Assembly: GCF_014279995.1 (NCBI RefSeq)
Contig: NZ_CP047935.1
Coordinates: forward strand, 1,943,494 to 2,007,493
Reading direction: 5' to 3'
Source: Synechococcus sp. BIOS-E4-1
GTDB taxonomy: Bacteria; Cyanobacteriota; Cyanobacteriia; PCC-6307; Cyanobiaceae
Length of the DNA: 64,000 bases
Position 1 is the first letter of the stretch. The number at the start of each line of letters is the position of its first letter. Under the pieces are notes generated by a model. That model searched no databases and was not told where the DNA came from. It saw only the letters and a program-made list of their open reading frames with translations. Positions 10,900 to 37,776 of this stretch are shown piece after piece. The translations under genes were made by a program, and so were the position numbers.

Positions 10900-10971
10900 A
10901 AGCAAGAGGGAGTCATCCGGTGGTGACTCCTTTAAAATGTTCTTGCGGACGTCATCGATGTCACGCAGCTT

Positions 10972-11058
10972 GGAGAGGTGGTCGAGTGGTTTATGGCTCT
11001 GGTCTTGAAAACCAGCGTGGATGCAAGTTCACCGTCGGTTCGAATCCGACCCTCTCCG
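10972..11058 (+). tRNA. tRNA-Ser (anticodon UGA), island attachment target
   Basis: Acceptor stem GGAGAGG (10972-10978) pairs with CCTCTCC (11051-11057). The anticodon arm CTGGT-CTTGAAA-ACCAG places TGA at 11006-11008, a long variable arm follows, and the T-arm is GTCGG-TTCGAAT-CCGAC. CCA is not encoded. The 3' part from 11001 is duplicated at 30175, so the intact gene is probably a hybrid restored by the integrating element. Confidence 0.96.
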
Positions 11059-11095
11059 TTCCAGAAACCCAGTCTTTGACTGGGTTTTTTAGTGT
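11001..11095 (+). repeat. Left attachment repeat (attL) of the 19.2-kb island
   Basis: 95 bp from the anticodon stem of tRNA-Ser through its terminator, nearly identical to 30175-30269 at a constant offset of 19,174 bp; only a few substitutions are seen (e.g. GTGGATGCAAG vs GTGGGCGCAAG). The homology continues more weakly into the integrase genes. Confidence 0.9.
11065..11092 (+). terminator. Terminator downstream of tRNA-Ser
   Basis: AAACCCAGTC / GACTGGGTTT stem with a TTT loop and a T-run. The same hairpin is carried in the second attachment repeat at 30239-30266. Confidence 0.85.
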
Positions 11096-11198: not shown

Positions 11199-12296
11199 AT
11201 GGCGCTGGATCTGACCGCAACGACCGCCAGCCTCAAGGCTCGGGGCATCCGCGGAAGCTTGCTGTCTGAAAAGGGATCTTTCTATTGGCGCGTTCGTGTG
11301 ACCGATACCGAGGGCGAACGAAAAACTCGAAAAATTCCGCTGCGGTTGGCCGCAGAACCCTCAGCCCTTGCATTGGCTGAATCCAGAATTGTTGAACTCT
11401 CTGGTCAGATTCAGGAGCAGGGGGCTCTCCCCGATCAGCTGCCTTGGGATGTCCGCAAGGTGGTCCCCGCCGGCAAGAAAAACACCGTCACCGTGGCAGT
11501 GGCGGTCCAAGCCCTGGAGGTGGATTTCTGGAAAGGCAAGATCAGAACCACTGCAGCTGAGCGCACCTGGGAACGGTTGAAAGCAGAGACAGATCGGCTG
11601 CCGCAGCAAGCAACGCTCACCATGGATCTGCTTGTGGGAGTCGGTGAGCAGCAGAAGCCCGGCAGCCGAACCCGCCTCGAATTTCTGAAAGTGTCGAAGC
11701 GGCTGGCCAAGCTCATGCGCGTCGGGGGCACCGACCGCCTCGATGATCTGAAAACGCCTTACGAACCGGAAGCTCGCGGCATCCCAAGCGATGCGGAGAT
11801 TCAGCAGGTTGTTGAGGCCACGATTGACGATCCAACTTGGGGCTGGGCAACGTGAACGCTTGCCACGTTCGGCTGCAGACCGTCTGAATGCTTTTCAATG
11901 CGCACTTCTGATGACGGCACCGCGCAGTGCCTCACCATTAAAAGGGAGGTGAAACTCCCCACCTGGCGCACTGCTCTCGCCCTGCCGGTCTGTGATCTCT
12001 CCGAACCTGAGCGGTTGGTGCCGTGGGATGTCACTACTCCGGCGAAATACGACAGCAAACACGCCAAGCTCCTTTGTGATCGGTGGCAGGGTTGGCTGAA
12101 ACGGCGATTCCCTGGGATGCAGCTCTATGGCTTCAGACATGCCTGGGCAATTCGCAGCATCAGCAAAGTGCCTTCGACATCAATCGCGGCGAAGTGCATG
12201 GGCCACGACATTGCCGTGCATCACCGGGAATATCACCGCTGGTTGGATCAGGCCGACATCGCCGCAGTCGCGTTGGCGATGCAGAAAGCAGCCTGA
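11199..12296 (+). pseudogene. Tyrosine integrase of the island, interrupted by one in-frame TGA
   Basis: Two open segments (11199-11855 and the one holding 11898-12296) are in the same frame, separated only by TGA at 11853-11855; beyond it the frame reads TLATFGCRPSE without a gap. The C-terminal part has the integrase HxxR box in 'GFRHAWAIRSI' and 'CMGHDIAVHHREYHRWL' with the H and the presumed nucleophilic Tyr. A full product would be ~365 aa, normal for tRNA-associated integrases. The same TGA is present in the second copy (31016-31018). Either it is a shared nonsense mutation or the stop is suppressed. It starts 141 bp after the tRNA, as expected for an integrase next to its att site. Confidence 0.85.
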
Positions 12297-14619: not shown

Positions 14620-14904
14620 ATGTCCCAAGAACAGCTCCAAGCATTCATCGAAAAGGTCCAAGGTGACACCCGTCTTCAGGAGAAGTTCAAAGCTGCTGAT
14701 GATTCAGACGCAGTTCTTGCGATTGCGAAAGAGGCGGGATTTATGATTTCTGCTGATAAGATGGCTCAATCAGAGATGACTGAAGAAGAGCTGGAAGGCG
14801 CGGCTGGGGGGCTGCGGCGGCCGGGGTGTGTTAATTCTTTCGGAACCCCCCCGGTCAATCCTTCACTGTTTCACTGTTCGACTAGCACTCCCTTCTGTGA
14901 CTAG
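14620..14904 (+). CDS. Nif11-leader (prochlorosin-type) precursor peptide
   Basis: Leader of 64 residues (MSQEQLQAFIEKVQGDTRLQEKF... AGFMISADKM... EEELEGAAGG) typical of ProcA substrates of a class II lanthionine synthetase. The core after the double Gly has about 30 residues with three Cys (core positions 6, 22, 29) and seven Ser/Thr, so up to three (methyl)lanthionine rings are possible. It is the only procA in the first island and is followed by a terminator and the spacer repeat shared with the one at 33461. The TATAAC promoter of the main array is not visible upstream. Confidence 0.9.
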   Translation: MSQEQLQAFIEKVQGDTRLQEKFKAADDSDAVLAIAKEAGFMISADKMAQSEMTEEELEGAAGGLRRPGCVNSFGTPPVNPSLFHCSTSTPFCD

Positions 14905-15232: not shown

Positions 15233-16120
15233 TCAGAGCAAAGGGCCTTCGATGTCGGCATCTCTGGCATTGCCCTTGCCGCGGTGGATGTCCTTCACCC
15301 TGCGGAGATATTCACGAGTCAGGAAGACGCCTCTGTTGGGGTCAACCTCATCGGTGTTTAGCTGCAGCGCAAGCTGTTGCTCACTGATGCCCATTACTTC
15401 AAGGGCCACAGACTGGATGCTGAGCAGGTCTTCCATGCCCTCGTCGACTGCCTTCTTTGCCTCCAGGCCAGCGATGTTGATCGCCTCTTCTGTGATGTTG
15501 GCTGCTTTGTTGATCAGCTCTCGGTTGTCCTGTGCAGCAGTGTTCAGAGCACCGACTGAACGGCTTGCATCGTTGGTTTGCTGCTGCAGGTCTGCCAGAG
15601 CTCGGCGATACGTCTCGAAGGAGCCGTTGATCTGCTCCTGATTGTTTTTCAGCAATGCCAGTGACTGCTGTTGCAGGGTCTCGCCCGTCTTTGCAGCTTC
15701 TGCCATGGCGGTGGTTCGCTCAAGCAGATCGCTAACGGTGGCTTGCATTCCAGCAACTTCCTCGGAAAACAGCATCGACCTTGCGTAGATGGCGCTGCTT
15801 GCAGCGTTCCACTCAGTCATTGCCGTCACGTCGGGGCTGGTGCCGAAACGTTCTGAGAGCTCTGCCAGCCCAGCATTGACCTGCTCAACATCAGCCTGCA
15901 GCTGACCGATGGTGTCCTGAGTCTGTTGCTGCTGAATCCTGGCGTTGAGCAGTTCACGCTCACGTTGTTGGCGTTCTGCTTCTGCTGCTGATTCCAGCTG
16001 TGCCTCACGGTGCTGGCTCTCGATCCAAGCCTTGCGGCCTTCGAGCGGAATGGAGTCGGGGACTTCCCAGCTGGTGCCTTTCAACTCGTCGATCTCTCCT
16101 CTGTAAGTGACCTTCTGCAT
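15233..16120 (-). CDS. Coiled-coil hypothetical protein
   Basis: 295 aa, almost wholly helical and rich in Gln, Glu and Ala (REAQLESAAEAERQQRERELL, then repeated 'DTIGQLQADVEQVNAGLAELSERF'-type heptads to about residue 240). No signal peptide or membrane segment. Downstream partner of the gene at 16124-16630 with only 3 bp between them, so co-transcribed. A structural or scaffold-like role in the satellite is possible but nothing shows it. Confidence 0.7.
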   Translation of the reverse strand: MQKVTYRGEIDELKGTSWEVPDSIPLEGRKAWIESQHREAQLESAAEAERQQRERELLNARIQQQQTQDTIGQLQADVEQVNAGLAELSERFGTSPDVTAMTEWNAASSAIYARSMLFSEEVAGMQATVSDLLERTTAMAEAAKTGETLQQQSLALLKNNQEQINGSFETYRRALADLQQQTNDASRSVGALNTAAQDNRELINKAANITEEAINIAGLEAKKAVDEGMEDLLSIQSVALEVMGISEQQLALQLNTDEVDPNRGVFLTREYLRRVKDIHRGKGNARDADIEGPLL

Positions 16121-16123
16121 GGA

Positions 16124-16630
16124 TCAATACCCCCGTGACATGGCTTGGAGCTCGGCCTGCTGCTTGGCGATGCCAGCTGCATACATCTGCTGCATGGCGT
16201 GCTCATGCGCCTGTTGCTGAGCAGCCTTGGCTTCTGCTCTTTCTGAGGGTGTCTGCACTCCTGCCTCAGTCCTGAGTCGCTTGGCTGCTGCAGGGTCGAG
16301 CTCCTCCAGGCGCATCGCCTGAGTGAAATTCCGGGCTTTGTAGGGGTTCGCTTCGATCAGCTGTTTCACCTCAGCGGCCTTTGCCTCATCTCGGCGCTGC
16401 TCCTGGCTCTTCGGGGTTGGTGAGAGTGAACCTTGCAGGGCATCAGCCACCAGGTCGGCTGGTGCAGATCCGCTCAGCAGACTCACCAGCTCGGGGTCAG
16501 ATGCTGCTAACTCGAAGCATTTCGATGCATTCTGTTGCTTCCAGGCTGCAAAATCAGCTGGAAAGGGTTCTGTCGCGCTGAATGTTGCCCAGCGCCGGAG
16601 AACCGCAATTGAGCTTGAGAAATCCGCCAA
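16124..16630 (-). CDS. Hypothetical Ala/Gln-rich helical protein
   Basis: 168 aa. No recognised domain. N-terminal half mixed helical (RRWATFSATEPFPADFAAWKQQNASKCF), C-terminal half charged helices (RRDEAKAAEVKQLIEANPY, AKAAQQQAHEHAMQQMYAAG). Same operon as 15233-16120 (3-bp gap) and probably 16651-17034 (20-bp gap). Confidence 0.65.
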   Translation of the reverse strand: MADFSSSIAVLRRWATFSATEPFPADFAAWKQQNASKCFELAASDPELVSLLSGSAPADLVADALQGSLSPTPKSQEQRRDEAKAAEVKQLIEANPYKARNFTQAMRLEELDPAAAKRLRTEAGVQTPSERAEAKAAQQQAHEHAMQQMYAAGIAKQQAELQAMSRGY

Positions 16631-17517: not shown

Positions 17518-18234
17518 TCAGGCTGTATTCGTCACGATTGCCCCACTAGAAAGACACGAAAAGCGACTCACGTCAAAGCCGTCGCACTTTCATCTTCAAG
17601 CTGTGATCTCATATGAGACTCACTGGCCTGTCGACTGCGCATAGATCGACGATGATCAAACACTCCCCCAAACAAGGGGGGGCAATCCTGTCAAGAACCT
17701 TAAGGCACAAAAACTAAAAACCACAGATCAGCGGCATGGCGGAAGATCTCAAGGAATTTTTGTGGAAAAACACGCTTCTATCCGTGGAAAAAGACTCTGC
17801 TTTTCCACAAAGCTGTGCACCATAAGCCTTGCTGATAATTCAAAACTCTCTCAAGACTCGGACTTGGGGTAGACGCTTGAGATCGTTGATGGGCTCTAGC
17901 CAGCGAGAAGCACGGGTATTGCTGGCTACTTTTTACGCAGGCAGTCTTATCCAAGTCCAACTCTGAGTGACCCTCTAAAGCACGTCAGCCCGCAAAACTC
18001 ACTCACCAGGGGGGAGGGCAAGATAAAAACAGAATGTTGCACTTATCTAGAGATTATTGCGAATTGATGATGCTTCGCTTTTCGGCTAAGTAATGCTTAC
18101 CTGATTGGCACGCATCACACTTGCAGGCGTTCGCTTTGCTTTATCAGCGCTTGCCTCCTGAGAAAGCATTACCGAGTCATCAATAGCGCCTCCTTATTGC
18201 TAAGCAATAAGGCCCGAAACCGGCCGGATTTGCG
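17518..18234. other. Non-coding region with inverted repeats before the short recombinase
   Basis: No convincing gene. Bases 18092-18099 (TAATGCTT) and 18164-18171 (AAGCATTA) are inverted copies, and a perfect 10-bp palindrome lies at 18192-18212. The position directly before the recombinase makes this a candidate for recombinase binding or an operator. Confidence 0.5.
18192..18212. repeat. Perfect 10-bp inverted repeat upstream of recombinase
   Basis: CCTTATTGCT-A-AGCAATAAGG. It is not followed by a T-run and precedes rather than follows a gene, so an operator or recombination site is more likely than a terminator. Confidence 0.6.
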
Positions 18235-18894
18235 GTGCTCTGCCCGGATCTGTTGCTGTCACTGCTTGGTTGCTCTTCTATCGATAGAGCAACTAGGATT
18301 AAGGCTGATTCGAGCCCTCTTGTGAAGGTCAATCGCAACGGTCAGGCCACAGTGCTCACCACCGAGCAGCTGGATGAACTGTTGGCTGCTGCTCCGTCAC
18401 CTCGTTATCGCGCTCTGTGGTCGCTGCAGCGATGGTCAGCAGCTCGCATCACCGAGACCCTGGTCCTGACATGGGGCGATGTTGCTGCCGGTCACGTCAC
18501 CTATCGGAAGGCCACCACTAAGACAAAGGCCACCAAGCAGATCCGCAGCACCGACAGGCTTCAGGCTGCTCTGGATGACTACCGCCAGGCTTGGGCTGAT
18601 GAGCATGGCCACGTTCCTGCAGCTGGTGAGGTGCTGTTTCCTGCCAGTGGCAGCACCCACACTCCGATGAGCAGGCAGGCAGCTGACAAGGCCCTGCGGT
18701 CAACTGCCAAGCGACTCGGCTTCGAGGGTGTCTCGACTCACAGCTTCCGCCGGAGTTTTGCCACTGGTGCTCTGAAGCGAGGGGCATCATTGCCTGCAGT
18801 GCAACGGGTTACGGGCCATCAATCACTTTCCGGGCTCACTCCTTACATCGAGGTGGATGAGGTTGATGTGATGGCCGCCCTGGCTGGTGCATAA
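18235..18894 (+). CDS. Short tyrosine recombinase of the satellite block
   Basis: Up to 219 aa, about 190 if GTG 18322 (VKVNRNGQATVL) is the start, which fits the family better because the first 29 codons have no conserved look. Catalytic features: Arg in 'WSAARITETLVLTWGDV', 'HSFRRSFAT' (HxxR) and 'TGHQSLSGLTPYIEV' with His and the nucleophilic Tyr. The usual N-terminal SAM-like DNA-binding domain is missing or very short, as in small Xer-like recombinases of cyanobacterial elements. It is closed by its own terminator. Distinct from the tRNA-proximal integrase, so the island is probably composite. Confidence 0.88.
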   Translation: MLCPDLLLSLLGCSSIDRATRIKADSSPLVKVNRNGQATVLTTEQLDELLAAAPSPRYRALWSLQRWSAARITETLVLTWGDVAAGHVTYRKATTKTKATKQIRSTDRLQAALDDYRQAWADEHGHVPAAGEVLFPASGSTHTPMSRQAADKALRSTAKRLGFEGVSTHSFRRSFATGALKRGASLPAVQRVTGHQSLSGLTPYIEVDEVDVMAALAGA

Positions 18895-18918
18895 CTAAGG
18901 CCAACAATCAGAACAGCT

Positions 18919-18946
18919 GCCCGGCCGATGTTGCCGGGCTTTTTAT
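18919..18946 (+). terminator. Terminator of the short recombinase gene
   Basis: GCCCGGC-CGATGTT-GCCGGGC stem with TTTTTATT. Confidence 0.85.
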
Positions 18947-19103
18947 TGCCTTGCGGGGGTGGCGGTGGATTCTGTTGCTGCGATTTTCTGAGGATGGTGA
19001 GAAACAGAATGGAGCTGAGTGATGCTTTCTCCCCTCCTGATTATTTTTGCCGCCGCTTTGGGGTGCCGGGGGGTTGCGATATCTCTAAGACGTTAACCCT
19101 GAA

Positions 19104-19460
19104 TCAGTTTTCCCTGCCTGTGATCTGAAGCAGCTTGGCGCTGAGGCCCAGAGCACCGATGGCATTGCTGTGCTGCCGGGATTCGATTGACATTGTTGCC
19201 ACCTTTTCGAGTTTCTCCAAGGCACTGGCAACCCAATCTTTGCGATCCATCTGATCGAATCGCTCTCTGATGACGCCACGCGCTTTCTGTAGGTAGGTCT
19301 CAGCCTGACGTGTGCTAACCCCCCATTCGGACGAGCAAACCCGAACGATCTCGCCAGTTGGCTTGCACAGGCTGATCAGCTCGATGATTTTGTCTACTCG
19401 ACGGGCTGAAAGTTCCTTATTTGCTTTCTTTACTCCTTTCCCATAAGTATCGGCGCTCAT
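19104..19460 (-). CDS. Terminase-small-subunit-like protein (TerS candidate)
   Basis: 118 aa. Residues about 15-65 form a helix-turn-helix unit (RRVDKIIELISLCKPTGEIVRVCSSEWGVSTRQAETYLQKAR). The C-terminal part 'DWVASALEKLEKVATMSIESRQHSNAIGALGLSAKLLQITGREN' has the Ala/Leu helix ending in 'AKLLGL'-like sequence common in TerS proteins. TerS selects DNA for headful packaging, and satellites use their own TerS to divert helper capsids. Here it stands without TerL or structural genes. It could instead be a plain HTH protein; structure comparison would decide. Confidence 0.5.
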   Translation of the reverse strand: MSADTYGKGVKKANKELSARRVDKIIELISLCKPTGEIVRVCSSEWGVSTRQAETYLQKARGVIRERFDQMDRKDWVASALEKLEKVATMSIESRQHSNAIGALGLSAKLLQITGREN

Positions 19461-22986: not shown

Positions 22987-25900
22987 TTAAGAGGCACTCC
23001 AGACGACCTGATCAGCCCTTGGAGCCGGAATGATTCGCCCCCTGCCGTATTGCTTTGGCAGTGAGAGCAGCAGCTCTTTCGCAGCCTTTGCGTCTGATGC
23101 CCACCTCCGCCTCAGAACTTCCCTGGCAGTGACCTTCTCTTGCCTTCCGCCAAGCTCGATCACCTTGGCCACAGAGGCAGGAATGTCGCTCATTCCGATC
23201 TGCGGAGCCAGGGTGTCGAAGCTGTTCAGGAAATACTGAGCCATGCGAACAGCCCTCTCCATGCTCTCGGCACTGATCTTGAGCGGAATGTCGTTCATCG
23301 ATCCACCAGCTCCAGGCTTGCTGATCAGCGAGGCGTGCTCGATCGCATGGATCCATCCAGCGAATCTGACGAGATAGCCGCGCAGTTTTCCCAGATACGG
23401 CGATCGAACACCGCCGCACTGAGCTGCTTCCATGCTGAACTCATCAGCCGCCTTGGCGAAGACGTGCCAGGCATCCTCTGAAAGCTCCACCTCGATCTCT
23501 CCGCTGATCTGATCCAGCGAGGAATAAATACGAGTCAGCTCGGGAGTGATGTCACTCTCATCACGATTGGCAGCCGGGAAGACATAAGGCGGAATCACCC
23601 ACAGAAACCGAGACCAGAAACCATCACCGCCTCTGCTCGCCGCATCCTCACCGCTCAGGATTCCACCGAGGGTGTCCTGTTGGATTGAGCCATAAACGCT
23701 CACAGCTGTCTCGGACACAATCAGGCGATCAGCTCCTGATCTGGTGATGTCGATCCCCTCGCCGCTCCACATCGAGAGCCATTGAGGCCGATCCTTTGCT
23801 GCCCCGCCTTTTCTGTAGGCATCCATAGAGCCGATCCATGCCGACAGTTCATCCCTGGCCATCACCAGCCCGAAGGTCATCGGGTTAGTCAGTGATTTCG
23901 CCATCCCCTCAAAGGTGGTGTCTGAGGCGATTCGCTGCCGTGCCGCCGGCACTTTCTTTTGCTGATCCTTCGGAAGGTCTTCCTGCCGAGCTTTTTCTTC
24001 CTTCTCGATCTGATCGCTCAACTCATCCCACTTGTTCAGCGGTGCCAGAACTTGCCTGCTGACTGGTGTCTTCATTTCGCTGGCTCCGCCGACTCGACCG
24101 ATCCAGAACACCATCGGCTCGGTGTAGCCGACCTTCACCTTGGTTCGATACCGCCTGCCAAGGATCGAGGCCGATGCGGACAGGAATGGAGGCAGCATCG
24201 CCAGCTCACTGATCGGGAAAGCCTTTGCTCGGGTGCTCAGCAGTTCGGCAACAGAGGTCGGAAGCACTTCGCGCAGCTGCAAACAATCCTTCTTTGCATT
24301 CTCGAAGCGATCGAGTTGCTCTGCTTGCAGTTCCTTGTCGAGGTTCTCTTTCTCGCTCAGGTTGCTGTCGAACTCATCACGATCCAGGCCCGCCAGCTCC
24401 CACAGCCACAGCCCGAGCAATGTCTGCTCTTCGGGGGTTGGTGATGCCGGTCTGGCGACTCCGTAGGAGCACCAATGCGCAGCCCACTCACCGAGGCCGC
24501 CCTTCCTATGACTCGCCCAGCAATAGAAGTGATTGGATTCGGCGAACAGCCTCAGGCTGTTGCCGCTGTAAACGCCGCTCTCACGAACAGTGCTGAACGG
24601 TGATTGGCCTTCTGCGCCCTCTGCTGTCTCTACGAAAGCGAACTCAAAGCCAGGCCAGCCGCGTTTCTCCTGCTTCTCGATCAGCGTCCCCTGCCTGGCA
24701 ACGAACTCGAACGCACCAGCGAGGCCGTGCTGTTCAAACAGCTTCTCTTCTGCGTGGCGAATCTTCCAGCCGAGCTCTAATTCAGTACGCCTCCACTCAA
24801 CCGGCGGATCGAACTCACCATCATTTCCGCCGTTGCTGCGAGCTTGGCTCCAAGCAATCGCCATTGCCTCATCCATCTCCCAAGCGAACTCAGGTGATTT
24901 CCAGTTGGCGGGCAGTGCGCTCAAAGCTTCCCGGTATTCACTCCAGCGGGTTTCGAGGTGGTCAACCTTCCAGCCGCGCTGCTTGGCTTCCGCCTCCAGA
25001 ACCCGGCGCACCTCGGCCAGGTCATAACAATGGTCAGCTGCTTCGATCAGCCTCTGCTCAGTCGTGGCTGCCCCGCCTCGAAGGCGTTTCGAGTTTGGCC
25101 TCAGAGCACCCGGCAACCTCATCCGGCGTGCCTTGCTGACGACAGCTGGATCACTGCCGGCCAGGGCTGTGAGCAACTTCAGGACCGGGAATGCATCGTC
25201 AAAGCTGGCAACGCTGTCTAGGTGAATGTGGCCATGTACCGACTTGCCGCCACTGCTCACCACGGTCAGTGAGAACCCGAGCCCTTTCAGCCAATCAACC
25301 CGCTTGAGCTGCTCCTCCTCGCTGATGTCATCCCACTCCAGATAGAGCTCTGGCAGGCCAAGCGCCGTCCGCTTGCCCATGGTGGTGAGCGCAGTGTTCC
25401 GATCGAAGTCGGTCTGGCTGGTGAGATAAAAACCGCCTTTTGTTCGCGCCTTGGCGTTACTGGAATTTGTCTTAATCTACTCCAGGCACTTGGCAGTCCC
25501 TTCCCGGCAGCCGTCATTCGGATTCGGGCCATACAGATTGCTGCTGAAGCTGTGCTGCATGGATTCGCCCAACTTGAGCCATGACGCTTCCTTGCCGTCT
25601 TTGTCGGTTGCTTTAAGCGGCGCGAGCTGCAGCTCTCCGTCATCTCCGAATCCGAGCAGGGCAGGTCGGTCGCCGCAGATCACAAAGGTGATGCCGTCTG
25701 CGATCACCGTCTTTCTGATCGCCAAGAATCTGACGGTCGGGTGATCGAGATTCTTCAGATCACTACGCAGGGTGATCGGCTTTCCAATCGCTTTCGCTGC
25801 TGATTGCCCTGCAGCTGGTGAATCTGTTTCGCCCCATGGATCGGGAGCCTGGGGGTTCTGCACTGACCACCCGGCAGCGTTGGCAACATCAGCGAACTCC

Positions 25901-26124
25901 TCAACCTTTCCGCCGTTCTGAATGAAGCGATCCAGAACCTTCCGAGCATCCTTGCTGTGGCCGTTGAGAGCACCGTCGACAATCTTCGAACGGTGGCCTG
26001 TAAGTCTTCGGCGATCCTTCTCAATCTGAGGAAGTTGATCGAATGGGCCGTCGTAGCGAGTGCCCCATTCGGTCTCTTTCTCTACGACCTGAGAAGAATT
26101 AGTTTTCGGCTTTCGAGGGGCCAT
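22987..26124 (-). pseudogene. Primase / DUF3987 helicase replication protein, interrupted by one amber codon
   Basis: Two long open segments, 26124-25477 (215 aa) and the one covering 25380-22987 (797 aa), lie in the same frame. They are separated only by TAG at 25477-25479, after which the frame reads IKTNSSNAKARTKGGFYLTSQ without a break. A full protein would be about 1045 aa. Around the joint, 'LYLEWDD' and 'SSGGKSVHGHIHLD' resemble an archaeo-eukaryotic primase core. The rest is DUF3987: 'PPFLSASASILGRRYRTKV', Walker-A-like 'GRVGGASEMKTP', Walker-B-like 'LVMARDELSAWI' and 'GDGFWSRFLWV'. If not suppressed, the ATG at 25380 could still give the helicase part. CAG to TAG is the simplest origin of the stop. 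Confidence 0.8.
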
Positions 26125-27592: not shown

Positions 27593-28095
27593 GAGCGGGC
27601 CATCTCCAATGCTTTGTCTCTGGCGGTGTTGATTCGTGCCATCACCTCAGTTCGACCTCCTCGATCTGGGTGGTGAATTCGCATCAGTTCTCGATGCCGA
27701 GTCCGTACTTCTGAAGCCCTGGCGGTTGCATCCAGGCCGAGGATTGCGAAGGGTTCAGAGGAACGCCCCAAACCTCCAGATAACAGGCTGGCTAGCTCCA
27801 GCTGTGAAACCGAAGCAGCCAGTCGCACGTTCTCCTTCTGGAGCTCCTGAATCTCTTTTTCAAAGCGCTCTGATCGATTGAGGTAAAAGCGAAATGACAC
27901 CTCAAGCTCAGAGTTTTGATGTCTGAGGAAAGCAATCTCATCTGCTTTCTTCTGGCAATCGTTGTCCTGCGGCATGTCGATAAGACCGGCCGCATAGCGG
28001 AGGTGTTGCCGAGCCTTGTCATTGCGATGGATGGCTGGCCATGTGGCCAACTCACACAACGTCTCGACAACCTCGTTCAGGTTGGGTTGCTGCAT
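27589..28095 (-). CDS. Protein with C-terminal J-domain
   Basis: 168 aa. Residues ~50-105 are a coiled coil (FLRHQNSELEVSFRFYLNRSERFEKEIQELQKENVRLAA). Residues ~118-165 are a J-domain: 'FAILGLDATARASEVRTRHRELMRIHHPDRGG' with an intact HPD, then 'VMARINTARDKAL'. It should recruit and stimulate an Hsp70 (DnaK). The coiled coil followed by J order is unlike DnaJ/DjlA. Overlaps both neighbours at stop/start codons, so it belongs to a three-gene operon headed by the HTH gene. It may recruit host DnaK to element replication; that is inference. Confidence 0.8.
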   Translation of the reverse strand: MQQPNLNEVVETLCELATWPAIHRNDKARQHLRYAAGLIDMPQDNDCQKKADEIAFLRHQNSELEVSFRFYLNRSERFEKEIQELQKENVRLAASVSQLELASLLSGGLGRSSEPFAILGLDATARASEVRTRHRELMRIHHPDRGGRTEVMARINTARDKALEMARS

Positions 28096-28394
28096 CAGCG
28101 CTCACCTCGCTGAATCTGCTCGGCGCAGACAGTCGCCCGTTGTCGGTCGAACACGTACTGAAACCGAGTGCCACGCTTCTTTTTCACGAAGCAGCTCGGG
28201 TCCATTTGCCCGGTCTCGCACCACCGGATCAGGCATCGTTTGCTGATGCCAAGCTCCTGCGCGAACTTCGCGCTGGTGGTGTGGCGATTTCCCGGCACGG
28301 GTAAGTGCTGAATCGCTTTGTTCAGAATTTCGCGGAGATCCTGAACCTCGCCGGAAAGCGCAGCAATTCGCCCCTCAAGAGTTTGATGTTCCAT
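28095..28394 (-). CDS. Helix-turn-helix (excisionase/AlpA-like) DNA-binding protein
   Basis: 99 aa. N-terminal coiled coil (LEGRIAALSGEVQDLREILNKAI), then an HTH/winged element 'TSAKFAQELGISKRCLIRWCETGQMDPSCFVKKKRGTRFQYVF' resembling MerR-like excisionase folds. First gene of the operon with the J-domain protein (1-nt overlap). Likely a regulator or recombination directionality factor of the element. Confidence 0.65.
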   Translation of the reverse strand: MEHQTLEGRIAALSGEVQDLREILNKAIQHLPVPGNRHTTSAKFAQELGISKRCLIRWCETGQMDPSCFVKKKRGTRFQYVFDRQRATVCAEQIQRGER

Positions 28395-28817: not shown

Positions 28818-29924
28818 ATGAATAATCAAATGTTTGGAGTTATAGGAACTTCTAGAAAAGAATCAGAAAAAAGACTACCAATTCATCCAAAACATTTACT
28901 AAAAATACCTAAAGACATTAGAAGTAATATGGTCTTTGAAACTGGATATGGAGAACATTTTGGGATATCTGATGAAAAAATTGCTAGCTTAACTGCAGGC
29001 ACTGCTTCACGTAAAGATATACTAAAAGATATAGGAAACGTAATTTTATTAAAACCAGTTTTAGAAGACTTTACAGAGATCAAAGAGGGTGGAATAATTT
29101 TGGGTTGGTCTCACTGTGTCCAACAAAAAGAAATCACTCAAATAGCTATTGATAAAAAATTAACTATTATATCTTTTGAGTCAATGTTTTCTCTTAATAA
29201 AGATAACAAAATAAATGAACATGTCTTTTATCAAAATAATGAATTAGCTGGTTATTGTGCCGTTCTACATGCACTTCAATTAAAAGGAATTGATGGTCTG
29301 TATGGAGATCAAAAGAAAATACTAGTCATAGGTTTTGGGTCTGTAAGTCATGGAGCTATACATGCCTTACAAGCAAGAGGCTATAAAGATATAACAATAT
29401 GTACACGCAGAAGTATTGGTACATTATCGAATGTAATTACAGGGTGTAAATATGTTACTATGCCAAAAGATATTATAAGCAGTAAAAGGTTTGCTAATTT
29501 GATTTATAAGTCTGATATGGTTATTAACGGGATATTACAAGACCCTGATAATCCAATAATGTTCATAAAAGAAAAAGACCATTTAAAAATGAAATCAGGA
29601 AGTTTGATTATTGATGTTAGTTGTGATCAAGACATGGGATTTTCTTTTTCAAAACCAACTACATTTAAAGATCCTATATTTAAAGTAGATAATATAGATT
29701 ACTATGGGGTAGATCATACCCCAAGTTACCTCTGGGATACTGCTACTATGACAATATCTCAAGCACTCAGTGATTACTTACCTAATATCATTATAGGCAA
29801 AGAAAATAAATCTAAAAATAAGACATTGCTAAATGCTACAGACATCAAAGATGGGATTATCAATAATAAAACTATAATTTCATTTCAAAATAGAAATGAA
29901 GAATACCCTTATCATTTTATATAG
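28818..29924 (+). CDS. N5-(carboxyethyl)ornithine synthase-like / alanine dehydrogenase-PNT family enzyme
   Basis: 368 aa. N-terminal AlaDH/PNT domain ('SRKESEKRLPIHPKHL', 'FETGYGEHFGISDEKI'), an NAD(P)-binding Rossmann motif 'KILVIGFGSVSHGAIHALQA', and the CEOS-type C-terminal part ('IIDVSCDQDMGFSFSKPTT', 'YYGVDHTPSYLWDTAT'). CEOS reductively condenses ornithine (or lysine) with pyruvate; alanine dehydrogenase or another opine-type reaction is possible. Its base composition is strikingly AT-rich (codons ending in A/T) against ~55% GC neighbours, so it is recently acquired cargo, next to a transposase remnant and 250 bp before the right attachment repeat. Confidence 0.75.
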   Translation: MNNQMFGVIGTSRKESEKRLPIHPKHLLKIPKDIRSNMVFETGYGEHFGISDEKIASLTAGTASRKDILKDIGNVILLKPVLEDFTEIKEGGIILGWSHCVQQKEITQIAIDKKLTIISFESMFSLNKDNKINEHVFYQNNELAGYCAVLHALQLKGIDGLYGDQKKILVIGFGSVSHGAIHALQARGYKDITICTRRSIGTLSNVITGCKYVTMPKDIISSKRFANLIYKSDMVINGILQDPDNPIMFIKEKDHLKMKSGSLIIDVSCDQDMGFSFSKPTTFKDPIFKVDNIDYYGVDHTPSYLWDTATMTISQALSDYLPNIIIGKENKSKNKTLLNATDIKDGIINNKTIISFQNRNEEYPYHFI

Positions 29925-30174
29925 ATTATTTGACTAAATTGTTTTCACCTTTATTGAACATGGTTTACCTCTATTTTCACCATTTTCAAAAGGGCACCGT
30001 CAAGTTAACTAATTGAGGTGTAGAAAAGTGCTTCTACTGATTTTTAGAAACAGTAAACCTCATTAATTGAGTTGGCTCTGGCTCGAAAGACCAGTGCCGG
30101 GCAAATATGTCGAAAATGTGTCGCAGACTGTCACACATATGCCCAAAGTCCTTGCAAGCAGGGAGGCACAGCTT

Positions 30175-30269
30175 GGTCTTGAAAACCAGCGTGGGCGCAA
30201 GTTCACCGTCGGTTCGAATCCGACCCTCTCCGTTCCAGAAACCCAGTCACTGACTGGGTTTTTTAGTGT
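30175..30269 (+). repeat. Right attachment repeat: 3' tRNA-Ser fragment
   Basis: Copy of 11001-11095 (tRNA-Ser from the anticodon stem to the discriminator base at 30232, plus the terminator hairpin). The 5' half of the tRNA is replaced by unrelated sequence, so this is not a functional tRNA. It is followed by a second integrase in the same spacing as the first, so it also served as left end of an earlier insertion. Confidence 0.9.
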
Positions 30270-30361: not shown

Positions 30362-31460
30362 ATGCCCCTGGGCCTGAATGCCACTGCAGCCAGCCTTATG
30401 GCGCGTGGGATCAAGGGCAGCCTGTATGAGGCGAGGGGGTCCTTCTACTGGCGGGTCTGCGTTGCAGATTCAGAAGGTCAAGGAAGAACTCGCAAAATTC
30501 CCCTGCGGCTGCGGACGCAGCCTTCAACCCTGACCCTGGCGGAAACAAGAATTGCCGAATTATCTGCATTGATCCAGCTGGAGGGGGGTTCTGCCCGATC
30601 AGCTGCCATGGAACGCACCGAAAGTTGCTCCTGTAGCCAAGAAACACGCCTTCACCGTGGCCAAGGGGGTCAAAGCCTTCGAGGTTGATTTTTGGAAAGG
30701 CAAGACCAGAACCACTGCAGCTGAGCGCACCTGGGAACGGTTGAAAGCAGAGACAGATCGGCTGCCGCAGCAAGCAACGCTCACCATGGATCTGCTTGTG
30801 GGTGTCGGTGAGCAGCAGGAGCCCGGCAGCCGAACCCACCTCGAATTTCTGAAAGTGTCGAAACGGCTGGCCAAGCTCATGCGCGTTGAGGGCACAGACC
30901 GACTCGATGATCTGAAAACGCCTTACGAACCAGAAGCTCGCGAGATTCCAAGCGATGCGGAGATTAAGCAGGTTGTTGAGGCCACGATTGACGATCCAAC
31001 TTGGGGCTGGGCAACGTGAACGCTTGCCACGTTCGGCTGCAGACCGTCTGAATGCTTTTCAATGCGCACTTCTGATGACGGCACCGCGCAGTGCCTCACC
31101 ATTAAAAGGGAGGTGAAACTCCCCACCTGGCGCACTGCCCTGGCGCTGCCAGTCTGTGATCTCTCCGAACCTGAACGGGTGTTGCCGTGGGATGTGACAG
31201 CTCCGGCGAAATACGACAGCAAACACGCCAAGCTCCTTTGTGATCGTTGGCAGGGTTGGCTAAAACGGCGATTCCCCGGGATGCAGCTCTACTGCTTCAG
31301 GCATGCCTGAGCAATCCGCAGCATCAGCAAGGTGCCGTCGACATCCATCGCTGCGAAGTGCATGGGCCACGACATCGCCGTGCACCATCGGGAATATCAC
31401 CGCTGGTTGGATCAGGCCGACATCGCCGCAGTCGCGTTGGCGATGCAAAACGCAGCTTGA
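30362..31460 (+). pseudogene. Second tRNA-proximal tyrosine integrase, decayed
   Basis: Homologue of the integrase at 11199-12296. Damage: a frame change near 30588 (after 'ALIQLEGG'), the same TGA as copy 1 at 31016-31018, and a further TGA at 31307 turning 'FRHAW' into FRHA-stop just before the HxxR arginine. The N-terminal third differs clearly from copy 1, whereas from about 30700 on the two are nearly identical. That points to recombination or gene conversion between them. Not functional. Confidence 0.85.
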
Positions 31461-31493
31461 TTTGATACCTGCAGCAACCGCTTTGGCGAGTGA

Positions 31494-32765: not shown

Positions 32766-33026
32766 TTACTTTTTATCTACAATCATTAAGCGCTCTTTGG
32801 AGAATTCTGCAATAATTTTGTGTGGATCGTCTCTGTAATTCCACGTAGCTCGCGCAGACGTGAATCTTCCGTCGATGCGAATGCTGTTGATATCAATCTG
32901 ATAATCCACAATATTAATCGGCTTTTTATCAAGATCATATGAAATTGATGCAGCTGTGACCCACCTTTCGGCCTTAGCAGGGGAGGCAACCAGGATCAAC
33001 GGCAGAGCCAATAGGAGTCGTTTCAT
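32766..33026 (-). CDS. Small secreted hypothetical protein, 86 aa
   Basis: Signal peptide MKRLLLALPLILVASPAKA, mature part 'ERWVTAASISYDLDKKPINIVDYQIDINSIRIDGRFTSARATWNYRDDP', which looks like a small surface-adhesin-E-type beta fold. Exported role unknown. Confidence 0.65.
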   Translation of the reverse strand: MKRLLLALPLILVASPAKAERWVTAASISYDLDKKPINIVDYQIDINSIRIDGRFTSARATWNYRDDPHKIIAEFSKERLMIVDKK

Positions 33027-33041
33027 CCCATCAGTTTGGCC

Positions 33042-33317
33042 TTAGTCGGTACCGGGAAGGATGTGGGTCACCATATCAGCGTTGACCAAGCGGATCACGC
33101 CTGAATCCACATCGGCGAACTGAAAGAGGTTGTGCATGGAGGGATCACGGGCAGCACCACCGCAGTGGATCACCTGCCCCATCCACCAATCCTTGTCGGC
33201 CTTCTCTCCGGTCAGAAGGTCGTGGAGCACGATCACCGTCATGCCTGGAACCACGCTCAGGAAGATCGGCTGTTCTGAGGGGTCCTGTTGGTTGTAGATC
33301 CCGTGGTCGACTGACAC
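33042..33317 (-). CDS. DUF3104 family protein, copy 1
   Basis: Core 'FLSVVPGMTVIVLHDLLTGEKADKDWWMGQVIHCGGAARDPSMHNLFQFADVDSGVIRLVNADMV' matches the other copy at 50568-50861 closely. The frame is open to 33458 but that part is the leader repeat of the divergent procA gene; GTG 33317 is a more likely start (91 aa). DUF3104 is a picocyanobacterial family of unknown function. Divergent pairing with procA recurs at 39.0-39.7 kb (both decayed). Confidence 0.7.
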   Translation of the reverse strand: MSVDHGIYNQQDPSEQPIFLSVVPGMTVIVLHDLLTGEKADKDWWMGQVIHCGGAARDPSMHNLFQFADVDSGVIRLVNADMVTHILPGTD

Positions 33318-33392
33318 ACTCTCACTATGAGGATAAGTAATAGCCACAAAACAGCAGGTCTGCCCCAAGTTTTTTTGGCAAGACCAAGCCTG

Positions 33393-33460
33393 ATGGTGCC
33401 CGGAGTACGGATGACGCTGCTGCTGGCCATGGCTAAGTTTTCTGTACTGGCCAGTCACCG
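33393..33460 (+). promoter_or_regulatory. procA leader type B, copy 1
   Basis: GTGCCCGGAGTACGGATGAC, GCTGCTGCTGGCCATGGCTAA, GTTTTCTGTACTGGCCAGTCACC. Near-identical blocks precede procA at 34447 and 42945 and the relics at ~39450 and 51801. GGCTAAGTT sits where the type A leaders have GCTATAAC (last base 22 nt before the ATG). Confidence 0.6.
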
Positions 33461-33721
33461 ATGTCCCTAGAACAACTCAAGGCATTCCTCGCCAAAGTCA
33501 AAGACGATTCCAATCTTCAGGAGAAACTTAAAGCAGCTAAGTCACCTGAAGGCGTTGTGGGCATTGCTAAAGAACAAGGTTATGAATTCACTGCTGATAA
33601 GATCAACCAGCTCAGTGAAGAAGAGCTTGAAGGCACAGCTGGCGGTGGATGTTACGATAATACTAATGAGTGTAGTACCATGACTATTGTTGTGTTGCAA
33701 GGGGAGGGGGATAAAAGATAA
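33461..33721 (+). CDS. Nif11-leader precursor peptide
   Basis: 86 aa. Leader of the 'MSLEQLKAFLAKVK...AKSPEGVVGIAKEQGYEFTADKI' subfamily ending ELEGTAGG. Core of about 24 residues beginning GCYDNTNEC with two Cys and four Ser/Thr; both Cys are near the N-terminus and the tail (VVLQGEGDKR) is without ring residues. Type B leader upstream; divergent from DUF3104. Confidence 0.88.
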   Translation: MSLEQLKAFLAKVKDDSNLQEKLKAAKSPEGVVGIAKEQGYEFTADKINQLSEEELEGTAGGGCYDNTNECSTMTIVVLQGEGDKR

Positions 33722-34047
33722 AGCGAAAGATTAAGTGGACTCCCCATATGAGAGCTCTCGTAGACTACGCCCTCTAATCCCCTGCATTGACAGGAAATTT
33801 TTATTGTGTCAATAGTCTGGCTAAGCCCATAAATCAGCCTTCAATACCTGGCACAATTGAGCGCAGTTGAGCAGAAATAGTCAGGGCTTAATTAACAATC
33901 AAGCCTGCAATTAACTAGCAACTCCGGCCAATACTCGTTCAGCCGCTGCAATCAACTCCGACTCCCTGCCAAGACCAGGCCGGCCTACGCCCGAAATACG
34001 GATAGACCGCAGCAGAGCCTGCCTGGCGATCCAAGGGCTCTCCTTTA
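33722..34047. repeat. Spacer repeat, copy 2, with weak terminator
   Basis: 33778-33810 has a weak CCTGCATTGACAGG hairpin followed by AAATTTTTATT. 33832-33943 repeats 14984-15088. The rest up to 34047 has no gene. Confidence 0.65.
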
Positions 34048-34110
34048 GTGACTACGTGTCACCCGATACATACAAGCAGTTGTAGCCTTTGTTTGTCGAG
34101 ATCGCGTCAA

Positions 34111-34341
34111 ATGGAAGACTTGCTGACCATTGCGAATAAGTGCCAGACGGTCAGCTTCCTTTCTGATCCAAGCCCCAGTGGTTCAACAAATGACGTCTTC
34201 GTGATCGTTGACCACATCAAAGAAATGCCAGCAAGTCATCCTCCTCTTCTGAAGACACGCCGGAACATGCGTTATGAGGATGCCGTTGCTCTTTGGAGAG
34301 AGCTTCAACGCTGTGGATGGACTGTGACTGAAGCTTCCTGA
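34111..34341 (+). CDS. DUF1651 family protein, copy 1
   Basis: 76 aa from ATG 34111; a GTG at 34048 would add 21 residues without similarity to the family. 'VFVIVDHIKEMPASHPPLLKTRRNMRYEDAVALWRELQRCGWTV' matches the picocyanobacterial DUF1651 family; a second member is at 59490-59720 and is also 76 aa. Function unknown. Confidence 0.65.
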   Translation: MEDLLTIANKCQTVSFLSDPSPSGSTNDVFVIVDHIKEMPASHPPLLKTRRNMRYEDAVALWRELQRCGWTVTEAS

Positions 34342-34446
34342 TAATTTAAGACCGATAGTTCGATCCATCTCAGGCCGGATGGTGCCCGGAGTACGGATTA
34401 CGCTGCTGCTGGCAATGGCTAAGTTTTCTGTACTGGCCAGTCACCC

Positions 34447-34791
34447 ATGTCCCTAGAACAACTGAAGGCATTTCTCGCCAAGGTCAAAGATGATTCCAAT
34501 CTTCAGAAGAAACTAAAAGCAGCTAAGTCACCTGACGATGTCGTAGGAATTGCAAAAGAACATGGTCATGAATTCACTGCTGATAAGATCGAAGAGCTCA
34601 GTCAAGAGGAGCTGGAAGGCGTGTCTGGTGGAGGCACCGGCATGGGTGCCGAATTTGGCTGTAGGCAACTTCAACGATATAGCATAAAAATATTTGCGAC
34701 ATTATTTGCAGCCAAGTATATAGAGATTGTTTGGCCAGCTACCTCTAAATCACTACAGTTGCACGAGCTTAAAACTCCTGAATTTGCCTGA
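34447..34791 (+). CDS. Nif11-leader precursor with unusually long core
   Basis: 114 aa. Normal leader ('MSLEQLKAFLAKVKDDSNLQKKL', ending ELEGVSGG), but the core has 52 residues with one Cys (core position 10) and a hydrophobic, aromatic middle (IKIFATLFAAKYIEIVWPA) unlike other prochlorosin cores. A frame change just after 'FGCRQ' could have replaced the original end by read-through. If genuine, it is not a typical lanthipeptide. Type B leader at 34379-34446. Confidence 0.75.
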   Translation: MSLEQLKAFLAKVKDDSNLQKKLKAAKSPDDVVGIAKEHGHEFTADKIEELSQEELEGVSGGGTGMGAEFGCRQLQRYSIKIFATLFAAKYIEIVWPATSKSLQLHELKTPEFA

Positions 34792-34872
34792 TAAGCTATT
34801 GAAAAAAAATTCATTACTTGGTGCAATTGATCGAACCAATTGTTAGCTAAAGGCCCTTTAGTAAATCGTTGC

Positions 34873-34878
34873 TATAAC
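34873..34878 (+). promoter_or_regulatory. procA -10 box
   Basis: TATAAC in GTTGCTATAACCGTT, last base 22 nt before the ATG at 34900. The -35 position reads AAGGCC, a weaker match than in the other type A leaders. Confidence 0.6.
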
Positions 34879-34899
34879 CGTTCAAGACTCCCGATACCC

Positions 34900-35142
34900 A
34901 TGTCAGAAGAGCAACTCAAAGCCTTCATTGCTAAGGCCGATGTCGACAAGTCCATTCAGGACAAACTAAAGGCAGCAAAGTCACCCGAGGAGGTCGTGGG
35001 CGTCGCTAAAGATCACGGTCACGAGTTCACTGCTGATAAAGTCACTGAGCTCATAGCTGAACTCAGAGAAGAGGAGCTAGAGGGTTTGGCTGGTGGGGCC
35101 GTGCCTAAAGATACTACTATTCCTTGCGGCTATAATTGGTAA
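34900..35142 (+). CDS. Nif11-leader precursor peptide
   Basis: 80 aa from ATG 34900, set by leader similarity and promoter spacing; the upstream ATG-like extension to 34840 contains the promoter. Leader 'MSEEQLKAFIAKADVDKSIQDKL...' with a 4-residue insertion (IAEL) before REEELEGLAGG. Core AVPKDTTIPCGYNW: one Cys, two Thr, so at most one methyllanthionine ring. Confidence 0.88.
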   Translation: MSEEQLKAFIAKADVDKSIQDKLKAAKSPEEVVGVAKDHGHEFTADKVTELIAELREEELEGLAGGAVPKDTTIPCGYNW

Positions 35143-35315
35143 TCCTAAACGCTGTATAGCAGGCACTTTCAATCTTGGCTGAATGTTAAATCTTCAAAGC
35201 TTACGCTCTCGGAGCTCTTACATTAACAGGGGCTTTTTATTACTTCAATAGCTTGGGTAATCCCATCAATCAGCCTCCAATACCTGGCACGATTGAGCGC
35301 AGTAAGTATTAATCA

Positions 35316-35344
35316 AAGACACTTCAAGACATTATTGCTATAAC
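35316..35344 (+). promoter_or_regulatory. procA promoter, type A
   Basis: AAGACA, 17-nt spacer, TATAAC (35339-35344); ATG at 35366. Confidence 0.7.
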
Positions 35345-35365
35345 CGTTAAAGACTCCCGATAGCC

Positions 35366-35677
35366 ATGTCAGAAGAACAACTCAAAGCCTTTCTAGAAAA
35401 GGTCAAAGGCGACACCAGTCTGCAATTGAAGCTAAAAGCAGCTTCCGATGCTGATGGCGTTGTGGCGATTGCGAAAGATGCTGGATTTGAATTTTCTGCT
35501 GACAATCTAAAGCGTGTTTTTGGGCCCTTAGAAATTTCCGATAAAGAGTTAGAGATTGCAGCTGGTGGCGAACAATTTACAGATATTAAATATACCTGTC
35601 CAGAAGTGGCAACCATAAATGATATAGCCTGCAAAGGAATTTCAGACATAGTGTGTACCGGAATAATATGCCCTTGA
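35366..35677 (+). CDS. Nif11-leader precursor peptide, four-Cys core
   Basis: 103 aa. Leader 'MSEEQLKAFLEKVKGDTSLQLKL...VVAIAKDAGFEFSADNL' ending ELEIAAGG. Core of 35 residues with Cys at core positions 10, 21, 29, 34 and five Ser/Thr, enough for several rings. Type A promoter. No clear terminator follows. Confidence 0.9.
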   Translation: MSEEQLKAFLEKVKGDTSLQLKLKAASDADGVVAIAKDAGFEFSADNLKRVFGPLEISDKELEIAAGGEQFTDIKYTCPEVATINDIACKGISDIVCTGIICP

Positions 35678-35756
35678 TTTTTTATCACTTCCTCCCAAAA
35701 AAAAGATAAATAAGCCTTGAATACCTGGCACGATTGGGCGTGTTAATCGATAAACA

Positions 35757-35785
35757 AAGACGCTTCAGGAAATGGATGCTATGAC
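35757..35785 (+). promoter_or_regulatory. procA promoter, type A
   Basis: AAGACG, 17-nt spacer, TATGAC (35780-35785); ATG at 35807. Confidence 0.7.
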
Positions 35786-35806
35786 TGCTGAACAGACCTG
35801 CTACTC

Positions 35807-36082
35807 ATGTCAGAAGAACAACTCAAAGCCTTCCTTGAGAAGGTCAAAGCAGACACCAGCCTTCAGGAGAAGCTCAAAGCAGCGGCTGATGCCGATGCTG
35901 TTGTTGCGATTACCAAAGAGGCTGGTTTTAGTATTTCTGTTGACGATTTGAAGAGCTCTCAATCTATGTCAGAAGAAGAACTCGAAGGTATGGCTGGAGG
36001 GGCCGGGTATTATATGACTGGGAAGACTGCGGAATGTGGCCCGGTAGCATGCACCTGTCGAGGTCCCTGCTTGACACAGTAA
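35807..36082 (+). CDS. Nif11-leader precursor peptide, four-Cys core
   Basis: 91 aa. Leader ends EEELEGMAGG. Core of 26 residues (AGYYMTGKTAEC then GPVACTCRGPCLTQ) with Cys at core positions 12, 17, 19, 23 and Thr at 6, 9, 18, 25: four possible methyllanthionine rings, one of the most ring-rich cores here. Type A promoter and a good terminator at 36107-36136. Confidence 0.92.
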   Translation: MSEEQLKAFLEKVKADTSLQEKLKAAADADAVVAITKEAGFSISVDDLKSSQSMSEEELEGMAGGAGYYMTGKTAECGPVACTCRGPCLTQ

Positions 36083-36106
36083 GAAGAGTTGTACTCATTA
36101 TCCACC

Positions 36107-36136
36107 AAAGCCCCTGCACTGATAGGGGCTTTTTAT
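36107..36136 (+). terminator. procA terminator
   Basis: AGCCCCT-GCACTGAT-AGGGGCT followed by TTTTATTGCTTC. The AAGCCCCTGCATTGACAGGGGCTTTTTATTGCTTC pattern recurs after most procA genes. Confidence 0.8.
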
Positions 36137-36211
36137 TGCTTCAATAGCCAGACGAATCCCATAAATAAGCCTTAAATACCTGCCATGATTAGGCGTATTA
36201 ATCGATAGACA

Positions 36212-36240
36212 AAGACGCTTCAGGAAATGGCTGCTATGAC
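36212..36240 (+). promoter_or_regulatory. procA promoter, type A
   Basis: AAGACG, 17-nt spacer, TATGAC (36235-36240); ATG at 36262. Confidence 0.7.
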
Positions 36241-36261
36241 TGCTTAACAGTCCTGATAGCC

Positions 36262-36519
36262 ATGTCCGAAGAACAACTCAAGGCATTCCTCGCCAAAGTC
36301 AAAGGCGACACCAGCCTTCAGGAGAAACTCAAAGCAGCGAAGTCACCTGAAGATGTTGTAGGCATTGCTAAAGAACTTGGTCATGAATTCACCGCTGACA
36401 AGTTCACTAATCTCAGTAAAGAGGAGCTAGAGGGCGTGGCTGGGGGGAGTGGGAGCTATGCGGCGGGGTGCTGTGTTGGTTCAAGTCAGTGTGTGTTGGG
36501 AGGTGCTGGTACCTCATAG
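36262..36519 (+). CDS. Nif11-leader precursor peptide
   Basis: 85 aa. Leader 'MSEEQLKAFLAKVKGDTSLQ...AKSPEDVVGIAKELGHEFTADKF' combines the MSEEQ start with the GHEFTADK subfamily. Core of 23 residues (SGSYAAGCCVGSSQC then VLGGAGTS), Cys at core positions 8, 9, 15 and six Ser/Thr. Contains a second Gly-Gly inside the core. Weak terminator near 36636-36660. Confidence 0.9.
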   Translation: MSEEQLKAFLAKVKGDTSLQEKLKAAKSPEDVVGIAKELGHEFTADKFTNLSKEELEGVAGGSGSYAAGCCVGSSQCVLGGAGTS

Positions 36520-37089: not shown

Positions 37090-37110
37090 GCCGATCCAGG
37101 TCATTCAGCC

Positions 37111-37740: not shown

Positions 37741-37776
37741 ACCATCACTTACAGAGAGACTCGATTTCACACTGCC

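Follow-up and report, generated by a model that had tools for sequence, protein, structure and literature searches.

Why a short second tyrosine recombinase should lie tail to tail with a gene resembling a terminase small subunit (TerS), inside a tRNA island that has an integrase of its own, is the question raised by the 64,000-nucleotide stretch of DNA that we analyzed (hereafter the window; G000:C1:1943494-2007493 of a 3.31-Mb single-contig Synechococcus genome). The original prediction saw here a satellite nested in the island, formed by the merging of two elements. We arrive at a 19.1-kb TerS-bearing phage satellite, integrated at tRNA-Ser(tga) and worked through a helper tailed phage, as the quite probable explanation.

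The element at tRNA-Ser(tga) and its decay

The integration target is tRNA-Ser(tga) (10971..11059, + strand; ARAGORN, Rfam), the 3' half of which, together with the bases after it, forms attL (11000..11088, +). This sequence is directly repeated at 30174..30262 (+), the attR copy that marks the right end, and the two att sites (11.0 and 30.2 kb) bound an element of 19.1 kb. By the tRNA lies Int1, a tyrosine recombinase (11199..12296, +) with one in-frame TGA at 11853-11855. Since a second, more broken copy of Int1 with the same TGA follows directly beyond attR (approximately 30363-31461), the island is a tandem array. The two Int1 copies share this stop yet differ elsewhere in places, which suggests either gene conversion or an ancestor that was already stopped.

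Replication genes had been predicted for the island, and a DUF3987 primase-helicase is indeed encoded at 22987..26124 (−; DUF3987 E = 4.6e-42), but its frame holds one in-frame TAG at 25479. The 1045-codon frame is 95.4% identical to the intact gene of a relative (L025) and has a dN/dS of 0.13 despite the stop, suggesting recent damage. Judging from the in-frame stops in Int1 and in the primase, the window element is decaying, and because each of these two genes is stopped this copy is probably immobile on its own, with its TerS gene still intact. As had been expected for capsid, portal and TerL genes, a TerL profile found no match anywhere in the window, and none of the 20 other ORFs of the element that we scanned (12 small ones were dropped beforehand) matched a head, tail or packaging PHROG, although most of the PHROGs matched carry no description.

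The remaining content of the element includes a Nif11-type peptide precursor as cargo (14620..14904, +; TIGR03798, E = 7.9e-21) and an HTH protein, possibly an AlpA-like regulator or excisionase (28095..28394, −), that matches HTH_17 at E = 0.0046, under the curated cut-off. Two adjacent proteins of unknown function (295 and 168 aa; 15233..16630, −) are homologous to an adjacent pair at L057:2958-4009, in a TerL-bearing element of the same genome (blastp E = 1.4e-7 and 2.1e-19), and are candidates for packaging or capsid helpers. We also observed a very AT-rich segment at 28818-29924 (GC 29.6% over 29001-30000), within which an alanine-dehydrogenase-like gene immediately precedes attR.

Int2, a catalytic-domain-only recombinase

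The claim of a short, intact tyrosine recombinase held up on closer analysis. The ORF as given (18235-18894, +) matches Pfam Phage_integrase at E = 1.4e-19, and an alignment of 19 relatives revealed invariant columns R42, H140, R143, H166 and Y175, with K67 conserved in at least 90%; we take these six to be the catalytic residues. The aligned relatives (some with starts chosen by homology) share the N-terminal consensus MKVxxxGQAxxLT. Because of the conserved columns and this consensus, we consider the gene intact, with its start probably at GTG 18322, approximately 87 bp inside the given start. Int2 thereby spans 18322..18894 (+), and since the relatives have the same short N-terminus and the match to the XerD model covers just positions 102-276 of its 290, it is a protein of about 190 aa without the usual N-terminal domain. 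Across three relatives, dN/dS was 0.05-0.10 (0.08 against L025 and 0.10 against L026), so that by this measure Int2 is under purifying selection; TerS also gave low values over three relatives (0.11-0.22; 0.11 against L025 and 0.13, saturated, against L026, one of two saturated pairs). For this reason both genes are more than chance ORFs.

Int2 relatives were present in 63 of the 149 genomes, and beside TerS at just three of 31 TerS loci (the window, L025 and L026), the two genes being convergent each time. A virome-type contig (L177) carries an Int2 relative and a DUF3987 gene, which is no demonstration that the window element is packaged. As a separate observation, a genome of another cyanobacterial family (G141) gave 14 Int2 matches, several of them fragmentary, and the DNA common to four of these copies was mainly the gene itself.

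The region upstream of Int2

At window positions 18168-18180, just upstream of Int2, homology breaks off between the window and L025, and both also cease to align with L026 and L178; the window additionally loses homology to L179 at this place. At this breakpoint (18168..18187, without strand) relatives have a GTTCTCAAC motif and the window reads TCATCAAT, with no exact copy of the motif. Because homology to the left of Int2 breaks at one site there, Int2 may act at 18.17-18.18 kb, which we regard as a candidate site. At 5 of 22 loci the sequence GRTTCTCAA precedes Int2 by 124-146 bp; in all stretches together it occurred 17 times, against approximately 6 copies expected. When the 400 bp upstream of Int2 were compared with each of 22 loci, a site-like repeat appeared only in L053, where a 4.3-kb segment next to Int2 lies between the copies of a 33-bp repeat (94%) of the site upstream of Int2. 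This segment (L053:3713-8015) contains an 881-codon ORF, and Int2 is just outside it. An att site of Int2 had been proposed near 17.5-18.2 kb; what we found is a mosaic junction at 18.17-18.18 kb, but no att partner for Int2 in the window or in L025, including near the right end of the homology between the two.

Before Int2 the window also has a perfect 8-bp inverted repeat, GTTGCTCT...AGAGCAAC (18269..18293, without strand). Inverted repeats that were reached by 5 or fewer of 100 shuffles were present at 11 of 27 loci, with loops of 7 to 15 nt; eight of the 11 lay between −53 and −6, and eight had GTTG...CAAC-like arms, a dyad that is nearer to the Int2 gene than the GTTCTCAAC motif. Across six genomes, the dyad pattern led to two more Int2 relics (L178 and L179) and one unrelated place with 2 mismatches, and its reversed control gave one match. 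We set the inverted repeat aside as an Int2 site, given its presence at 11 of 27 loci only and that it may equally be an operator or an RNA hairpin. Two further candidates were rejected: a mobile unit of exactly Int2 and TerS, for which the alignment shows no matching right end, and a variable segment upstream of Int2 in L055/L056 as a second exchange site, since in L056 this segment looks like the remains of a TerS-like gene.

We take Int2 to act probably at its upstream region, with resolvase, cargo exchange and autoregulation as putative roles, or the upstream break may be plain mosaicism. It is a tentative and rather unlikely idea that Int2 together with TerS makes up a movable module for packaging, in which Int2 would exchange DNA approximately 130 bp upstream of its own gene at the GTTCTCAAC motif, a putative site somewhat reminiscent of the one that neighbors the integrase gene of an integron. 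If true, such a module would let satellites swap cargo or packaging specificity. The homology break, the recurrence of the motif before Int2 and the repeat in L053 speak for it; the lack of the exact motif in the window, the missing partner site in the window and L025, and the presence of Int2 beside TerS at just three of 31 TerS loci speak against it.

Int1 and Int2 recur together

The presence of two different recombinases had been taken as a sign of two merged elements. To count Int2 within one family of genomes (f1) we used 20 full-length places (E below 1e-15), leaving out two fragmentary ones, and a larger tyrosine recombinase accompanied Int2 in 13 of them. In ten cases both were in the stretch first fetched (the window, L026, L058, L060, L070, L167, L168, L169, L170 and L172), and a search with the Int1 of L060 added an Int1 that is 8 to 14 kb away at L055, L056 and L062 (as L183, L181 and L182, respectively). 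Support for the larger integrase was weak at five of these places, with Phage_integrase E-values of 2.6e-4 to 3.2e-4 (L168, L070 and L172) and 0.0055 (L060) and no match at L058, and the Int1 profile itself included L058 and L060. Both L060 and L182, from genera other than that of the window, have Int1 and Int2 at the same tRNA-Ser(tga), and both repeat the order of the window, that is, tRNA-Ser(tga), Int1, small minus-strand genes, Int2 and primase.

Among 17 integrases compared, the closest to the window Int1 was that of L060 (40% identical), which sits at the same tRNA-Ser in a different genus. At 11 loci with an Int1 of the tRNA-Ser type (a set that leaves out L190, 31% identical), tRNA-Ser(tga) was present in the stretch at eight and Int2 was within 14 kb at five. 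We also observed that Int1 of this type has repeatedly used tRNA-Ser(tga) for integration, across several genera (L060, L182, L184, L185, L186, L188, L189 and the window at 10971), with two complete or partial Int1 copies around it in L188.

Since Int1 and Int2 recur together in relatives, the pair reflects a shared plan and is not a sign of two merged elements. It is unlikely, in our judgment, that an older tRNA-Ser element received a satellite of Int2, TerS and primase through the action of Int2. Such an insertion would fit the loss of homology to L025, L026, L178 and L179 just upstream of Int2, and it would fit L025, where Int2, TerS and primase occur beside other genes with no Int1-type match and no tRNA in the first 20 kb; however, the contig of L025 stops short of the left end of the element, the breakpoint has no partner repeat in the window or L025, and Int1 accompanies Int2 at 13 of the 20 related loci, the tRNA-Ser of the window being shared by two of the others, which argues against it. 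The nested arrangement is therefore not supported and the single 19.1-kb satellite is the preferred reading, with the mosaic junction at 18.17-18.18 kb marking where a separate insertion may still have occurred.

A family of TerS-bearing elements without TerL

Matches to TerS were found at 31 places in 19 of the 149 genomes searched, three of them (one with a stop) in the source genome; relatives of the region around TerS occur in two named strains, Synechococcus sp. AG-679-A04 and AG-673-A03, and the contigs G016:C10 and G002:C15 are of the same genus as the window. The 30 other loci were fetched as stretches of 4.3 to 20 kb, some of them ended by contig ends. Within these stretches, neither a TerL profile nor tblastn revealed a full TerL at any of the 31 chromosomal loci; in L024 approximately 80 residues match the C-terminal part of TerL, and one short ORF matched at E = 1.2e-4. 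In a whole-genome search with phrog_2, which is incomplete because it missed the TerLs of L055-L057, the nearest TerL-type match to a TerS was approximately 12 kb away, beside the broken copy at G000:C1:2492912, and it lies in a separate element with a TerS-like gene of its own (L174).

A tRNA gene was in reach at 16 of the 31 loci, and at 10 of these 16 a duplicated tRNA 3' half encloses TerS, yielding elements of 4.6-19.1 kb (the nine relatives of the window element: 4.6-13.1 kb) at tRNA-Ser, Pro, Val, Thr, Arg or Ala. The smallest of them with integrase, helicase and TerS is 7.4 kb long. Eight of the ten contain an Int1-type integrase, which was not found in L031 and L043; over all 31 loci, 17 gave an Int1-type match within the stretch. 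Large neighbors of TerS or Int2 carried primase- or helicase-type domains in all ten cases scanned (DUF3854, D5_N, VapE, AAA_25 and Prim-Pol), and no domain was found in a 1289-aa protein of L057. In relatives, unlike in the window, Int1 and the primase are intact. For the eight att-bounded elements with an integrase, we listed 135 ORFs, set aside 21 that were already assigned, dropped 16 small ones and scanned the remaining 98. At E = 1e-4 they had matches in 20 PHROG families, of which five have a description (replication or nuclease) and 15 have none; no description among them names a head, tail, connector, packaging or lysis function. The make-up of these elements is that of a satellite that redirects packaging, which is not yet proof.

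Loss of the structural genes from an ordinary prophage, with TerS surviving by chance, could also leave a decaying copy such as ours, and in one prophage-like stretch (L054) an Int2 relative does occur with TerL (phrog_38-type, E = 1.4e-98), as the only recombinase found with the profiles used. We consider this origin quite improbable, given that the TerL-free plan recurs at 31 loci in 19 genomes, that att-bounded elements with integrase, helicase and TerS go down to 7.4 kb, and that TerS is under purifying selection.

Apart from this family, four TerL-bearing elements were observed in the source genome (L056, L057, L173 and L174; G000:C1 near 1.17, 2.82, 0.94 and 2.50 Mb, respectively). They also carry HTH/TerS-like ORFs and a large replication-type protein, and no head genes were seen in them by eye. 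Peptide precursors of the Nif11 type, which by eye resemble prochlorosins, were met repeatedly within or next to elements that bear TerS or TerL (the window precursor at 14620-14904; L024, L025, L031, L038, L051, L057, L173, L174 and L186), and window positions of approximately 33000-48000 contain many repeats of Nif11-type sequence. The position of these peptide genes in or beside packaging elements is a possible route for their spread.

The 118-aa protein as terminase small subunit by genome context

TerS is the 118-aa protein encoded at 19104..19460 (−), converging with Int2. Its sole library match below E = 0.001 was PHROG 34910, a family of unknown function (E = 1.4e-12), which 25 of 28 aligned TerS relatives match as well; no family named TerS in Pfam, PHROGs or NCBIfam matched it. 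Using tblastn, we found homologs in the cyanophages MED4-184, MED4-117 and P-HS2 (33% identity, E = 4e-9). In MED4-184 and MED4-117 the homolog is immediately followed by the gene annotated as terminase in MED4-117, and in MED4-117 the two genes overlap by 4 bp. A scan of viral contigs with the MED4-117 protein confirmed 88 loci, of which 80 were kept, and eight further loci came from scanning with another alignment, built from chromosomal relatives of TerS; when the query was the window TerS or its nearest group, no viral contig yielded a relative. TerL lay downstream of the TerS relative in all 88 viral loci fetched, starting −60 to +200 bp from the end of TerS in 80 of them, which are not independent because all were found with the TerS of one phage and belong to one phage group, and with an aligned start 0.2 to 1.6 kb from TerS in the eight loci of the second scan.

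Because its relatives sit before TerL in viral loci, the 118-aa protein is, by genome context, a terminase small subunit, as had been anticipated, and the dN/dS values indicate that the window gene is intact and under purifying selection. The AlphaFold model (32 sequences; pLDDT 83.8, pTM 0.63) has three N-terminal helices and a helical hairpin. Foldseek returned nothing at E = 0.001 or better for this model, and the best match of a TerS profile to solved structures was unrelated (E = 0.02). In a second fold comparison the small terminase of G20c was at rank 11 (6ejq_F; Z 6.3, rmsd 2.4, 53 aligned) and rank 31 (4xvn_F; Z 5.2, rmsd 1.6, 48 aligned), with unrelated rows above, up to Z 7.8. It is very improbable that the protein is instead an HTH regulator of the element, a reading in keeping with the HTH-like N-terminal helices, the lack of a TerS-named family and the rank of the G20c terminase below unrelated folds, and countered by its place before TerL in 88 of 88 viral loci and the overlap in MED4-117.

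Taken as a satellite claim, the prediction agrees with the contrast between these viral loci, all with TerL, and the chromosomal ones, 0 of 31 with a full TerL in the stretch fetched, and with the att-bounded elements.

Proposed life cycle and significance

The satellite reading, drawn from gene content and context, implies the following cycle. Upon infection by a helper tailed phage, Int1 would excise the element at the tRNA-Ser att sites, and the primase-helicase would replicate the excised satellite. The satellite TerS would then bind a putative pac site on satellite DNA and recruit the TerL of the helper, and helper heads would fill with satellite DNA. Int2 would be an accessory recombinase of the lineage, most likely acting at a putative site within approximately 150 bp upstream of its own gene, with resolving multimers or exchanging cargo as its task.

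The result is a family, defined by sequence, of elements in Synechococcus and its relatives that sit at tRNA genes and carry TerS but no TerL. Since its TerS family is common to the packaging genes of MED4-117 and P-HS2, it points to that phage group as testable helpers. The two-recombinase plan is recurrent, with a second enzyme that has no known task.

Comparison with known systems

In the literature searched we found no description of the window element and no paper that brings phage satellites, cyanobacteria and the terminase small subunit together; tycheposons and VEIMEs are compared through accounts in other papers and not through their first catalogues. In the cyanophages MED4-117, MED4-184 and P-HS2, the homologous TerS stands directly before the terminase gene, but these are 38-kb phages with their own TerL and a coat protein, and their TerS is 33% identical to ours.

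Phage satellites of the PICI type are described as having att sites, an integrase, a primase-type gene, sometimes TerS, no structural genes and a size of approximately 15 kb (PMC6092414). The window element resembles that description in its att sites, integrase, primase-type gene and TerS and in that no structural genes were recognized; PICIs are near 15 kb, the window element is 19.1 kb and its nine relatives are 4.6-13.1 kb (PMC6092414). Unlike the PICIs so described, it has a second, catalytic-only recombinase, and in this copy integrase and primase are broken; for the AlpA- or Stl-type regulator of PICIs (PMC6092414) it offers just a tentative candidate, the sub-threshold HTH_17 protein at 28095-28394.

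Tycheposons, described as elements of 4-200 kb with a tRNA at the border and a tyrosine recombinase, share all three marks with the window element (PMC10872708). As described, tycheposons and VEIMEs also share with it an origin in marine bacteria and the carriage of cargo, and some are proposed satellites (PMC10872708, PMC10803314, PMC10187409, PMC11389934). Induction, interference and packaging are described for PICIs (PMC6092414), and the mark of a VEIME is that it is found inside virions (PMC10872708, PMC10803314, PMC10187409, PMC11389934); packaging of the window element is a prediction. The PICMI of Vibrionaceae is similarly a small marine satellite with an integrase, a DUF3987-type primase and no capsid remodeling genes; its mandatory genes are given as int, alpA, primase and fis, with no terminase mentioned in that description, whereas TerS is recurrent in the Synechococcus-type elements (PMC10803314). 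Int2 also differs from another picocyanobacterial integrase, described as a full-length protein of more than 350 aa near tRNA-Phe or tRNA-Cys, often with a serine recombinase (PMC10187409).

Overall, the window element appears to work like a PICI-type satellite and is filed near tycheposons and VEIMEs, which enter here by their descriptions; its paired catalytic-only recombinase sets it apart from the PICIs described.
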